A stretch of DNA of 6,871 nucleotides. It comes from Methanosaeta sp. UBA80. Lineage in GTDB: Archaea; Halobacteriota; Methanosarcinia; Methanotrichales; Methanotrichaceae. The notes under the pieces were generated by a model, which was not told where the DNA came from, searched no databases, and was given only the letters and a program-made list of their open reading frames with translations. Shown here piece by piece: positions 2,498 through 6,233 of the stretch. Position 1 is the stretch's first letter. Each line of letters starts with the position of its first letter. The position numbers were made by a program, and so were the translations under genes. Location of the stretch: positions 633-7,503 of the forward strand of contig DAWB01000049.1 of NCBI GenBank assembly GCA_002505805.1. Direction: 5' to 3'.

Positions 2498-2812
2498 ATG
2501 GCATTTATCATGATCAAGCATATAGTCATGTTCAAGCTCAAAGAAAAGGCAGAGGGCAGGGATAAGGCAGAAAACATTCAGCTCCTAAAGGCGATGCTGG
2601 ATGCTCTGCCGGCCAGGATAAAGGAGATCAAATTCTTTGAGGTTGGAATCAACTTCCTCCAGGCGAGCATCGCCTATGACCTGGTGCTGATCTCAGAGTT
2701 CGAGAGCCTTGAGGCCCTTCAAAGCTACCAGAAGCATCCGGAGCATCTCAAGGTCTTCGACTTTGTGGTCAAGACCTGCGAGAGCCGGATAGTCGTGGAC
2801 TATGTCCTCTGA
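2498..2812 (+). CDS. Dabb (stress-responsive A/B barrel) domain protein
   Basis: A 104-residue protein made of one Dabb domain, a small ferredoxin-like alpha/beta fold that usually dimerises into a barrel. The domain starts with IKHIVMFKLKEKA (6-18), the classic first strand, continues through an amphipathic helix QLLKAMLDALPARIKEI (28-44), and has FEVGINF (47-53), then YDLVLISEF (60-68) and the SYQKHPEHLKV segment (76-86) typical of the family. Dabb proteins range from plant stress proteins to polyketide cyclases and dye or heme-related enzymes, so no substrate is assigned. I start at ATG 2498 because GGGAGGGG lies just before it and the domain begins immediately after. The frame is open further upstream to 2360 but that part is unlike the family. 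It overlaps the next gene by 11 bases. Confidence 0.82.
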   Translation: MAFIMIKHIVMFKLKEKAEGRDKAENIQLLKAMLDALPARIKEIKFFEVGINFLQASIAYDLVLISEFESLEALQSYQKHPEHLKVFDFVVKTCESRIVVDYVL

Positions 2813-3059
2813 GCAGCCGTTTAAGGTAGGCGTCTGCGGCATAGCCTGCCAGCTCTGCCCCCGCATGGTTCAGGGGAAATGCCCCAACGACGAGGCAGGA
2901 TGCAGGCCGCGCCAGAATCGCATGTGCCAGATAGCCACCTGCGCCTATGAGAAGGGCGTATCTCACTGCTTTGCATGCCATGATTTTCCCTGCGAGACCA
3001 CTAAGCTGGGGCCGATAAGCTACGGATACTGCTGCTATATTTCGGGAATGGAGTGCTGA
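2802..3059 (+). CDS. DUF3795-like cysteine-rich small protein
   Basis: An 85-residue protein with 13 cysteines (15 percent), recognised as DUF3795-like from CGIACQLCP (12-20), the central MCQIATCAYEKGVSHCFACHDFPC block (41-64, Cys 42, 47, 56, 59, 64) and the GPISYGYC ending (70-77). The cysteine spacing implies one or two bound metals, zinc or iron-sulfur; the family's function is unknown to me. The Cys77-Cys78 pair and terminal Cys85 are additional. There is no signal peptide. The ATG lies within the end of the Dabb gene: ATGTCCTCTGA contains this start and the Dabb stop. The two are therefore one operon, with translation probably coupled, since no separate Shine-Dalgarno is obvious. Functional linkage of the two proteins is inferred from this overlap only. 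Confidence 0.8.
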   Translation: MSSEQPFKVGVCGIACQLCPRMVQGKCPNDEAGCRPRQNRMCQIATCAYEKGVSHCFACHDFPCETTKLGPISYGYCCYISGMEC

Positions 3060-3109: not shown

Positions 3110-5689
3110 TCAGTCGATCTCATCCCTCAGCCCCTTGACGAAGTGCCCGTAGGTGATCCCCCCCAATGCCAGTGGCACGACCTTCTCCTTAAGCTCCTGT
3201 AGATCCTGCTCCAGCCTCTCCCCGCCTCTCTCGGTCAGCTCAATAGCCCTTCTATAGATTTCAGTCATCTCCCGGGCATATGCTTCGCCTCTGCCCCGCC
3301 CGTCCAGGGCCACGCCATCCAATCCCATGGCCGCTATTCGGGGCATCTGGTCCAGGAGGCAGGTCTCCACGGAGTTGAAGATGTGGGTCCGGGAATCATC
3401 ATCCAGCTGCAGGGGAAAGACCCGTCTCATATCTTGCAGTCCCCAGAACTGCCCGGAGTCGTCTGTTGCCGCATGCGGCCCAGCCAAGCAGGGAATGCAG
3501 TCCTCCGCCACCATCACCTCCAGGCTTCCCTGCACCACCAGCTCCAGGCTTGAAGCCTGCGGCAGAAAGCGACTGGCTGAGACGACTGCAGCTAGCTGTC
3601 GGGCGGAGAGTTCCGGGGAGAGGGTGATCAGGCTCAGAGGCGGAGAGAGGGCCTGGACGGTGAGATGATTGCAGACATTCAGGCCCATTCCCCCGTAAAT
3701 GGGGACGGCGGGTCGGCATTCCAGCGCTGCCTGCAGGGCACCTACATTCTCTACCATGACCCCGTCAACCTCTGCGCCAGCCAGCACCCTGCCGGCCAGA
3801 GAGAAGAACTCAGATCGGCAGATCCTGGGCCATTTCCAGAGGAGCTGCTTGCTGCCGCATATGGCCCGAGCTTCGCTGAGGATCTTTGTGAACCCGTCCT
3901 CCCTCGCACCATCATCTTTTATCCTGCGCCCCAATGACGGCTCAAGGTAAACCCGGTCGCATCCCCCGGCCACCGCACCCTTTACCTCCTCAAGGCTGGC
4001 GGCATAGACAGAGAGAAAGGATGCCGCAGCAGTTTTCCTTGTAGGGGGAGATGATGAAGCCCCACCAGAAGGTCCTGGCATTAAAGAGAGCATCTCCTGC
4101 CATAGGGCTCGGGCCACTTCCACCTTCTCCTTCTCCGGCCTTCTTCCAGCCAAAAGCGCCTCTTCCACCTTCTCCAGAAGCTGACGGCGCAGCTGGTTGA
4201 GAGCCCCCAGGGGAGCGAAGAGATCCCCGGAATAGTCCATCTCTATCTTTCTTATGGCAAAAGCAGTTCCACCGGTCCGGCGAAGCTGCGACTCGACCTG
4301 CTGCCGGGTGAGGGGCTGATTCTTGGCTTTTTCCATGAGAAACGATGCCAGGACAGCTACCTTCTTTCCATCCGGCAGCAGGGCCTGCAGAAGGGGCCTG
4401 TTCTCCTGCCAGCTCAGGTAGAGATCCAGGGGTATCCCGGCTGGAGCGGAGTCGATGATCTGAGCCGCCTTCCTTGATAGGGCGGTGCTGCCGGTAAGAT
4501 AGACCCTGGCCCCCGGTCGCACTCTCTCTTTCACCTTCATGCGCAAGAGGCCATCTTTCACCTCCGTCCTCTGCACCACCAGCCCCACCTCCTGGCCCGG
4601 CGACTGGAAGACCAGTCCGTCCCCCTTCTCCGGTGCCAGGCTGCCGGAGAGCCGCACTGCCGCCTCGCTTTTCCGGGAGTCATAGGAGCTTACGCTGCCC
4701 ACGAGAACTCCCCGGTTGTCCGACATCTCCCGGCCCATGACATCCCTCTCACCCAGCAGGTGGCCCTTGGTGAAGCTGCGGTTGAAGGCCAGGGCCAGGG
4801 CCATCTCATCCTCCCTTGAAGGCGACCAGTCTCCCCTGGCAATGCCGTCCAGCGCCCTTCGGTAAATGCTGGTCACAATGGCCACATACTCCGGGGACTT
4901 CATCCTGCCCTCGATCTTAAGAGATACCACGCCGGATCGGACTATCTCCTTTAGATGCCGGTAAACGCAAAGGTCCCTGGTAGAGAGCAGAAACTTCTCC
5001 GGCATAGGCCTGGCGGAGAGGCCCGTTGGACGGCCGTAACGGTCCTTCTGGCCGGAAAGCAGCACATAGGGCTTGCGGCAGGGCTGAGCACACATGCCCC
5101 GATTTCCGCTCCTCCCCCCGATGGCGGAAGAAAGAAGGCACTGCCCGGAATAAGAGTAGCATAAAGCGCCATGTACGAATACCTCCAGGCCGACATTGCC
5201 GGTCCCGCCCCGGACCATCGGCTTGATCTGCTCCAATCCCACCTCCCTGGCCAAAACCACCCTGGAAAAGCCCGCCCTTCCAGCCCATCGGGCTCCCTCC
5301 CCATTGTGGATGGTCATCTGGGTGGAGGCGTGCCTCTCCAGCTCCGGCACGATGCTTTTAGCTAAAAAAGCCGCACCCAGGTCCTGCAAAAGCAGGGCGT
5401 CGGCTCCCATCTCATAGAGGCGTATCAGATAATCGGCCAGGCCGGGGATCTCATCTTCCCGGACCAGGGTGTTGACTGTCACAAATACCCTCACCCCTTG
5501 CAGATGGGCATAGTCCACCGCCCGGGCCAGATCAGGCAGATCGAAGTTGGAGGCGAACTTTCTAGCCCCGAATCGCCTGCCTCCGAGGTAAACCGCATCC
5601 GCTCCTGCAGCCACGGCCGCTTTCAGAGCCTGCTCCGAGCCGGCAGGGGCGAGCAGCTCAGGCAGTCTTCTCCGGGCTGATGGCGGCAA
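3110..5689 (-). CDS. Long U32-family protein with second, degenerate U32-like barrel
   Basis: An 859-residue U32 protein. Residues 11-320 form the N-terminal barrel: ELLAPAGS (11-18), AGADAVYLGG (28-37), the full U32 signature from E169 to S187 (EVFVHGALCYSYSGQC...), then C200 and C204. C177, C184, C200 and C204 resemble the four cysteines that hold an Fe-S cluster in UbiU/UbiV and are needed in RlhA. RlhA makes 5-hydroxycytidine in 23S rRNA and TrhP (YegQ) hydroxylates tRNA, so RNA hydroxylation is more likely here than proteolysis; the substrate is unknown. Residues about 325-515 match the U32-associated collagenase-like (DUF3656) region. A low-complexity linker (538-552) leads to a second barrel (557-859) that resembles the first but lacks most cysteines. 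The start is TTG, the only candidate ahead of the conserved ELLAPAG, with GGTGGAG 4 bases upstream. It overlaps the preceding nucleotidase-like gene by 32 bases. Confidence 0.88.
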   Translation of the reverse strand: MPPSARRRLPELLAPAGSEQALKAAVAAGADAVYLGGRRFGARKFASNFDLPDLARAVDYAHLQGVRVFVTVNTLVREDEIPGLADYLIRLYEMGADALLLQDLGAAFLAKSIVPELERHASTQMTIHNGEGARWAGRAGFSRVVLAREVGLEQIKPMVRGGTGNVGLEVFVHGALCYSYSGQCLLSSAIGGRSGNRGMCAQPCRKPYVLLSGQKDRYGRPTGLSARPMPEKFLLSTRDLCVYRHLKEIVRSGVVSLKIEGRMKSPEYVAIVTSIYRRALDGIARGDWSPSREDEMALALAFNRSFTKGHLLGERDVMGREMSDNRGVLVGSVSSYDSRKSEAAVRLSGSLAPEKGDGLVFQSPGQEVGLVVQRTEVKDGLLRMKVKERVRPGARVYLTGSTALSRKAAQIIDSAPAGIPLDLYLSWQENRPLLQALLPDGKKVAVLASFLMEKAKNQPLTRQQVESQLRRTGGTAFAIRKIEMDYSGDLFAPLGALNQLRRQLLEKVEEALLAGRRPEKEKVEVARALWQEMLSLMPGPSGGASSSPPTRKTAAASFLSVYAASLEEVKGAVAGGCDRVYLEPSLGRRIKDDGAREDGFTKILSEARAICGSKQLLWKWPRICRSEFFSLAGRVLAGAEVDGVMVENVGALQAALECRPAVPIYGGMGLNVCNHLTVQALSPPLSLITLSPELSARQLAAVVSASRFLPQASSLELVVQGSLEVMVAEDCIPCLAGPHAATDDSGQFWGLQDMRRVFPLQLDDDSRTHIFNSVETCLLDQMPRIAAMGLDGVALDGRGRGEAYAREMTEIYRRAIELTERGGERLEQDLQELKEKVVPLALGGITYGHFVKGLRDEID

Positions 5690-6233
5690 TGGACTCCACC
5701 ACGCTTCTCCATTCCGGGCAGAAGAATACCTGATCAGAATAATCGTGGATATCTGTATCGTTCAGGCTCCAGGGATGGAGGAACAGTATTCCCTGCCTCT
5801 TCGGATCGCTCTTCACAAATTCGACTATATTCAGATCCAGGTCATCGATGAGAACATCGCAGGGGATGTTGTGTTTTGTGCCGGTTCGGGCATGATGGTA
5901 CCGGGTCAGACAGGGGAAATGCTCCTTAAGCCATCTCCTGGTGGCCTCCTCGGTGTGAGGTCTCCTGGCCGTGACCACCATGAGCTCATGCTCAGGCGTA
6001 GATAGCTGCTTTACCGCCTTTTTCGCCCCTTCCAATACCGGCACCCTCAAAACATACTCAGGATCGGACAGAAGCCGGGAGATCTCGGTCCAGATCTCAA
6101 TGCCCTCAAAGGACCAGTGGGCCCGATTGATATCTTTCTTGCTGTAGCTCCTCCCGTAATCCTTCTCGATCTCCCTGAGCACGGCAGCGACCTGATCTGC
6201 CAGAACCCCGTCAATATCCACTCCGATCTTCAA
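5658..6233 (-). CDS. HAD-superfamily 5'(3')-deoxyribonucleotidase-like phosphatase
   Basis: A 191-residue HAD hydrolase of the NT5C / 5'-nucleotidase type C group. Motif I is DIDGVLAD (6-13) with nucleophile D6 and acid/base D8. Motif II is VVTAR (86-90) with T88. The motif III lysine is probably K120 in the GTKHNIPCD segment, and motif IV is LIDD (128-131), with D130/D131 binding magnesium. The helical insert between residues 20 and 65 would form the cap that selects substrate. Relatives dephosphorylate deoxyribonucleoside monophosphates; the true substrate here is not shown. The start must be TTG (complement of 6231-6233), because an in-frame stop lies 4 to 6 bases upstream and KIGVDIDGV is the family's usual N-terminus. 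AGGGGA 8 to 9 bases before it is a good Shine-Dalgarno. It is the first gene of an operon with the U32 gene. Confidence 0.85.
   Translation of the reverse strand: MKIGVDIDGVLADQVAAVLREIEKDYGRSYSKKDINRAHWSFEGIEIWTEISRLLSDPEYVLRVPVLEGAKKAVKQLSTPEHELMVVTARRPHTEEATRRWLKEHFPCLTRYHHARTGTKHNIPCDVLIDDLDLNIVEFVKSDPKRQGILFLHPWSLNDTDIHDYSDQVFFCPEWRSVVESIAAISPEKTA

Follow-up and report, generated by a model that had tools for sequence, protein, structure and literature searches.

The window analysed here is a stretch of 6,871 nucleotides from the archaeon Methanosaeta sp. UBA80 (contig DAWB01000049.1, positions 633 to 7,503), whose source assembly comprises 2.17 megabases (Mb) and is 66.6% complete. Located on its reverse strand is a gene for an 859-residue protein that resembles E. 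coli RlhA and is made up of a U32 barrel, a DUF3656 domain and a second U32 barrel. Barrel 1 carries a complete cysteine site (C177, C184, C200 and C204), and barrel 2 has a cysteine at just one of the four places, C731, along with C734. The features of the gene, in window coordinates, are listed below.

3110..5689, minus strand: U32-DUF3656-U32 gene, RlhA-like, 859 residues, with a TTG start in the list of open reading frames
4685..5668, minus strand: barrel 1, residues 8-335, a predicted [4Fe-4S] U32 triose-phosphate isomerase (TIM) barrel
5078..5161, minus strand: four-cysteine motif CX6CX15CX3C of barrel 1 (C177, C184, C200, C204), read from the sequence letters
5183..5185, minus strand: E169, aligned to the glutamate of E. 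coli RlhA (E161) and TrhP (E162), invariant in the 54-sequence archaeal alignment A2
4154..4504, minus strand: DUF3656 (PF12392), residues 396-512, the middle domain, common to E. coli RlhA
3113..4048, minus strand: barrel 2, residues 548-859, a complete U32 barrel without the full cysteine site, from alignments, Pfam, profiles and a structural model
3185..3784, minus strand: second Pfam U32 match (PF01136, 57.5 bits, cut-off 22.4), residues 636-835, or 88-287 of a 311-residue piece
3392..3499, minus strand: eroded metal-site region of barrel 2, C731 to S766, from alignments and cysteine counts

Two U32 barrels in one polypeptide

The whole protein matched the Pfam U32 family with 312.2 bits across two stretches and DUF3656 with 71.9 bits (cut-off 22.1). 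AlphaFold2 predicted its structure with a predicted local distance difference test score (pLDDT) of 88.5 and a predicted template modelling score (pTM) of 0.89. Among the matches listed, its nearest organism-named relatives were Methanothrix proteins. An earlier note on this DNA had claimed an internal U32 duplication, and the claim was confirmed by BLASTP, Pfam, profile-profile comparison and the predicted fold. Residues 1-330 and 546-859 gave one collinear BLASTP alignment (34.7 bits, E value 1e-6, 23% identity), and residues 549-859 alone scored above the PF01136 cut-off (57.5 against 22.4 bits). A profile-profile self-comparison, which the note had proposed as a check, matched barrel 1 to barrel 2 with a probability of 99.9% (E value 4.7e-33, 288 columns). 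Structure prediction, proposed likewise, returned residues 548-859 alone as a TIM barrel (mean pLDDT 92.0, pTM 0.91). Because BLASTP, Pfam, the profile match and the predicted barrel concur, the repeat is beyond chance. The residue pairs that had been named were also found in the sequence letters, both at offset 547 (S18/S565, D31/D578, E169/E716, G174/G721, C177/E724 and C184/C731) and at offset 536 (C241/C777, G253/G789 and EGR 260-262/DGR 796-798), and the pairing of IYRRA at 275-279 with 811-815 was present in the BLASTP alignment of the two halves. A sequence search of the PDB with the whole protein gave no match, and a PDB search with the barrel 2 profile gave only short TIM-barrel stretches and unrelated chains.

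Barrel 2 had been described as stripped of its metal-site cysteines, with nothing to correspond to C200 and C204. For the window protein the residues were as described, with E724 in place of C177, C731 in place of C184 (a pair also made by profile alignment) and no counterpart of C200 or C204, but C734 had been overlooked. This residue lies three past C731 and was paired with C204 by BLASTP. Beyond the window protein the description does not carry over, as many relatives carry two loop cysteines in their second barrel and another ahead of the strand that reads 'RTHI' in the window protein. Intact second barrels have cysteine 1 just past a strand ending in 'ED' or 'EH/EY', two cysteines in the next loop, and one before the strand 'R-T/M-H'. 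The barrel 2 region of the window protein has C731 and C734 and lacks both cysteines of the loop as well as the cysteine that precedes 'RTHI'. Across the Methanothrix genus, the barrel 1 site was complete in 19/19 proteins and the barrel 2 site in 0/19; when the loops were read, C731 was present in 17 of the 19 second barrels and C734 as well in 5 of the 19, the window protein included.

Barrel 2 is under purifying selection, though less than barrel 1. The median ratio of nonsynonymous to synonymous substitution rates (dN/dS) was 0.144 for barrel 1, 0.182 for the middle domain and 0.223 for barrel 2, from the 113 of 171 genus pairs with usable dS. The set left out L184 (G307 C1:1769212-1771743), the U32 gene of a near-complete congener, which has one internal stop, a TGA. 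The sole U32 matches in 11/11 near-complete congeners were the two in this open frame, with barrel 2 above the Pfam cut-off in every genome (11/11). Since none of the 11 has a further U32 match, a second site could come from no other recognisable U32 protein, and the supply of a second cluster in trans by another U32 protein of the genus was ruled out.

Distribution of the pair and recurrence of probable cysteine loss

The two-barrel design is already known and widespread. 'RlhA1' and 'RlhA2' are reported to be mostly two domains of one protein (Pelosi 2019, PMC6747719). When 294 genomes of the window's phylum were searched at the protein level, 141 contained relatives. In a scan of named genomes, 70 of the best 80 of 592 candidate loci had at least 230 residues of second barrel, and these loci came from Bacillota, Planctomycetota, Cyanobacteriota, Verrucomicrobiota, Actinomycetota, Myxococcota, Fibrobacterota and methanogens, among others. 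A PF01136 search of ten named bacterial genomes gave, in 10/10, at least one open frame with two U32 matches above the cut-off. A search for stand-alone barrel 2 proteins gave 338 matches, of which 120 were listed; the upper rows were mostly on short contigs or with DUF3656 and probably represent fragments of two-barrel proteins; the lower listed rows were single barrels with PF16325, which we take to be the C-terminal domain of TrhP. Among the matches listed there was one other candidate stand-alone barrel 2 protein, P0308 (341 residues; longest contig 86,737).

To count cysteines, 141 rows were aligned, comprising 48 archaeal loci, the window, E. coli RlhA, the 80 named-genome loci and 11 of 120 listed relatives. 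The count set consisted of the 129 rows with at least 230 residues of second barrel. Counting was generous, in that a loop cysteine was scored as kept wherever it lay more than three residues past C731, as was a cysteine anywhere in a short segment around S766; 'lost' denotes 0-2 of the four barrel 2 cysteines. Barrel 2 had four cysteines in 60 rows, three in 23, two in 3, one in 17 and none in 26. The 64 bacterial rows had four (43 rows) or three (21 rows), and the 65 archaeal rows were divided among four (17), three (2), two (3), one (17) and none (26). The barrel 1 site was complete in 128/129 rows (the exception, L034, has unknown residues), a result that is partly by construction, because the named-genome search patterns include two of these cysteines; the archaeal loci came from the protein search, and the 19/19 of the genus is likewise free of cysteine-based patterns.

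Whether cysteine loss is universal in second barrels was a question raised by the earlier note, and it was answered in the negative, with four cysteines in 60/129 rows and three in 23/129; universal loss is thus ruled out by 83/129 rows. Because loss is not universal, the stripped barrel would be a derived state of certain lineages. Some sites are partly eroded, with three cysteines in L022 and two in L017 and L006. Twelve short rows were left out of the count: E. coli RlhA, one row with four cysteines (L038), two with three (L067, L133), four with little or no second barrel (L110, L117, L120, L132), and four from Bacilli-like bacteria (L083, L122, L127, L129), whose second barrels of 194-222 residues have zero cysteines at the four places. 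Since these last four also are without the cysteines, loss is not confined to archaea.

Two sets of relatives were observed beside these. A single isolate, Methanosarcinaceae UBA9310, has two-barrel paralogues, L116 with four barrel 2 cysteines and L089 with none. Family f7 (L050, L052, L053) consists of two-barrel U32 proteins of about 650 residues with a short and weak second barrel (21.2 bits in L053), and DUF3656 was not reported in the two members scanned, L050 and L053.

The age of the pair was addressed by a quick tree of 85 single barrels. Thirty-five second barrels lay on one side of a branch with a Shimodaira-Hasegawa-like approximate likelihood ratio test (SH-aLRT) support of 96, and 36 barrel 1 rows, including E. 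coli RlhA, lay on one side of another (SH-aLRT 90), adjoined by UbiU, TrhP and YrrO/YrrN-like singles. Because second barrels cluster together and barrel 1 goes with UbiU and TrhP, the pair appears old, its halves having split before it spread over bacteria and archaea. A recent local duplication was ruled out, as bacterial and archaeal second barrels share one side of a branch.

Loss was traced on trees of barrel 1 and the middle domain with barrel 2 columns omitted, and L034 was dropped from both trees. The kept or lost label required 7 changes on 128 rows, 4 of them forced by well-supported branches. With the four Bacilli-like rows added it required 10 changes on 132 rows, 5 of them forced, against about 40 for shuffled labels. 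Rows that had lost the site occurred in several archaeal lineages, beside the four-cysteine rows L026, L024 and L039 and the two- or three-cysteine rows L017, L022 and L006. Because the four-cysteine state is widespread, we read these changes as loss rather than gain, and absence of the metal site from the second barrel is most likely secondary. The Bacilli-like loss widens this recurrence and has no bearing on mechanism. A recurring loss of the second metal site in particular lineages, or indeed any remark on second barrels losing cysteines, was not met in the literature searched, a scope that did not extend to the content of Kimura 2017 on RlhA2.

Predicted function and a proposed role of barrel 2

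The window protein shares with E. coli RlhA (YdcP, the 23S rRNA 5-hydroxycytidine (ho5C) 2501 synthase) a U32 barrel with CX6CX15CX3C followed by DUF3656 in the same order, and its barrel 1 groups with that of RlhA, apart from UbiU and TrhP. The two are 34% identical over 520 alignment columns of barrel 1 and DUF3656 (E value 1e-70). A separate cysteine set in the second barrel, which the window protein does not have, is the majority state of this sample and not a published criterion of the family. E161, C169 and C176 of RlhA are reported to be required, and E161 and its TrhP equivalent E162 to be essential (PMC6599085); barrel 1 has residues matching all three of the RlhA positions. A match to the prephenate dehydrogenase family was found in 12/12 genomes, the window's own included, so prephenate is likely to be available. 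Two other assignments were rejected on NCBIfam scans: TrhP (YegQ), whose equivalog model scored 234.2 bits against a cut-off of 534, and UbiU. PF16325, seen in single-barrel proteins, was not reported in the window protein at E values up to 1.

We read the protein as an archaeal member of the two-barrel U32-DUF3656 (RlhA) family in which barrel 1 likely hydroxylates RNA and barrel 2 is likely a silent partner lobe after probable loss of its site, and we give this reading a probability of roughly 0.6. The repeat, the order of domains, the pattern of cysteines among relatives and its recurrence on the tree, the purifying selection and the lack of a further U32 match in 11 near-complete congeners are observed, and the direction of change, the Fe-S binding, the use of prephenate, the RNA target and the partner role are inferred. 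Under this proposal, barrel 1 would hold a [4Fe-4S] cluster on C177, C184, C200 and C204 and, with E169, would transfer a hydroxyl group from prephenate to an RNA pyrimidine. The most plausible target would be the cytidine of 23S rRNA that corresponds to C2501 of E. coli. DUF3656 and barrel 2 would position both the RNA and the active site of barrel 1, a task that a separate YrrN or UbiV subunit would perform in trans. A partner role for barrel 2 is likely by analogy with UbiU-UbiV and YrrO-YrrN. The earlier note had suggested that barrel 2 may bind substrate or RNA or may be regulatory.

The earlier note had likened the arrangement to UbiU-UbiV, in which two unlike U32 barrels work together. 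UbiU-UbiV is reported to be a heterodimer with a cluster in each protein (PMC6747719). It differs from the window protein, which is one polypeptide with one complete site, in that two proteins each carry a [4Fe-4S] cluster and act on ubiquinone precursors. The CX12CX3C part of UbiV resembles the first three cysteines of intact second barrels. The likeness fits a presumed two-site ancestor, whereas the derived state is closer to YrrO-YrrN (TrhP1/TrhP2) of Bacillus, which shares with the window protein a cysteine-bearing U32 barrel and a partner barrel without the four cysteines. The latter was read from two Paenibacillus YrrN-like proteins, named by their size and an adjacent YrrO-like gene and not by comparison with B. 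subtilis YrrN, which have no cysteines at the four places. Both yrrN and yrrO of B. subtilis are reported to be needed for the U32-dependent share of tRNA U34 hydroxylation, with a different pathway accounting for the remainder (PMC6599085). YrrO and YrrN differ from the window protein in being encoded by separate genes, and YrrN-like barrels group with TrhP-type singles, apart from barrel 2, so the cysteine-less state would be convergent. PepU32#5 is described as being without conserved cysteines (Pelosi 2019, PMC6747719), and we infer that YrrN belongs to it.

The two-domain RlhA1/RlhA2 proteins (Kimura 2017 as reported in Pelosi 2019, PMC6747719, and in Sakai 2019) share with the window protein two U32 domains per polypeptide but differ in barrel 2, which has three or four of the cysteines in 83/129 of those sampled and one of four in the window protein. 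E. coli RlhA differs in another way, being 653 residues long with seemingly only part of barrel 2 (about 527-621 by profile match) and with cysteines there, while the window protein has a whole barrel 2 without the site. For residues 507-653 of RlhA, the match to the barrel 2 profile began only near the midpoint of the profile (hhalign probability 91%, E value 1e-06, 87 columns), and the C-terminal part matched barrel 2 in HMMER with 14.5 bits (E value 9.3e-06, in a small set). This part of RlhA (encoded within L003:6782-8743) thus resembles a truncated barrel 2, and C572, C580, C611 and C614 were kept in 121/121 sequences, which says little because these are close relatives (120 listed, 88-92% identical). 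The two proteins may be a mirror case, suggestive only, in which E. coli dropped half of barrel 2 and kept the cysteines and Methanothrix kept the barrel and dropped the cysteines.

Several points weigh against the reading of an RNA hydroxylase with a silent partner lobe. E. coli RlhA, the member of known function, is without a complete second barrel, which means that not every member needs a full partner lobe. A 2020 review assigns ho5C to bacteria only (PMC7694415), and the literature search found no biochemical study of an archaeal protein of this family. The branch of UbiV is very long (3.4), which makes a kinship to barrel 2 uncertain. Sakai 2019 gives yrrO as trhP1 and lists trhP1/trhP2 as PepU32#5/PepU32#3 (PMC6599085), an order that would make YrrO, not YrrN, the cysteine-less protein and conflicts with the sequences read. 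Structure searches with barrel 2 alone gave other TIM barrels (rubisco, CutC and thiamin phosphate synthase) and no U32 structure 5D88 among the 50 matches listed, although 5D88 may lie further down. As to the samples, the named-genome scan took the best of its candidates only, the label changes are undirected, the trees are quick searches rooted at the midpoint, and the dN/dS pairs have branches in common, so that they are not independent.

Four other explanations were considered. The substrate may be other than 23S rRNA, either a tRNA base or a small molecule to which barrel 2 has adapted; U32 hydroxylases are reported to act on rRNA, tRNA and quinone precursors, and because the Methanosarcinaceae paralogues L116 and L089 differ in their barrel 2 cysteines (four and none), targets may have split there. 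We consider this unlikely, as barrel 1 and DUF3656 are RlhA-like and 11/11 congeners have no other U32 match. Barrel 2 might instead be active through cluster-free chemistry, with another metal or an acid-base reaction, making the protein bifunctional. Such an activity would agree with the purifying selection on barrel 2 and with residues that are invariant in the 54 archaeal relatives (e.g. N671, N674, S691, E693, D753 and Y812), yet the constraint on barrel 2 is weaker than on barrel 1, and since alignment A2 holds both kinds, these residues are common to cysteine-keeping members and no mark of a new activity. A bifunctional protein is therefore improbable in our judgement.

We regard as quite improbable that barrel 2 is a decaying remnant on its way to being lost, as would be the case in family f7 and E. 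coli RlhA. The match of the RlhA C-terminal part from about the middle of the profile, the f7 member L053 with a second barrel under the Pfam cut-off (21.2 against 22.4 bits) and the shorter cysteine-less second barrels of the four Bacilli-like rows would be in keeping with decay, but barrel 2 of the genus is of full length, confidently modelled, above the Pfam cut-off in 11/11 congeners and constrained. A U32 peptidase (collagenase-like) with two protein-binding barrels, as the Pfam names 'Peptidase family U32' and 'Collagenase' and the label 'putative protease' on some relatives would have it, is very improbable, given that characterised relatives are reported to be O2-independent hydroxylases, with Fe-S clusters shown for UbiU and UbiV (PMC6747719, PMC6599085, PMC11574389), and that the reportedly required hydroxylase residues are conserved in the window protein.

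Returning to the reading of barrel 2 as a silent partner, a broader proposal can be put forward tentatively. In methanogens, an ancient RNA hydroxylase with two clusters may repeatedly have had one of its halves turned into a pseudoenzyme, with barrel 2 shedding its metal site and staying on as an obligate scaffold. The second U32 cluster would thus be auxiliary, in electron transfer or structure, and not catalytic, and prephenate-dependent RNA hydroxylation would extend to archaea. A 2024 review states that the role of the Fe-S cluster in U32 hydroxylases has not yet been determined (PMC11574389). Lineages with one barrel stripped and the fused partner complete are natural single-site mutants, and a comparison of intact and stripped kinds, e.g. 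L116 and L089, would tell a catalytic from an auxiliary role of the second cluster. Should rRNA be modified by the archaeal proteins, ho5C would reach archaea.

Neighbouring genes

One feature outside the repeat lies directly upstream of the U32 gene.

5658..6233, minus strand: NT5C-like 5'-nucleotidase gene (PF06941, 63.0 bits)

This gene overlaps the start of the U32 gene by 32 bases and adjoins it in 14/22 congener loci, even though the flanks there were short, which makes co-translation of the two possible. A small cysteine-rich DUF3795 protein is encoded at 2802-3059 on the plus strand, convergent to the U32 gene, and lies near it in 7/22 congener loci. At 350-976 on the plus strand is a gene for a protein methyltransferase of the HemK2/MTQ2 family (NCBIfam TIGR00537, 171.7 bits against a cut-off of 87).

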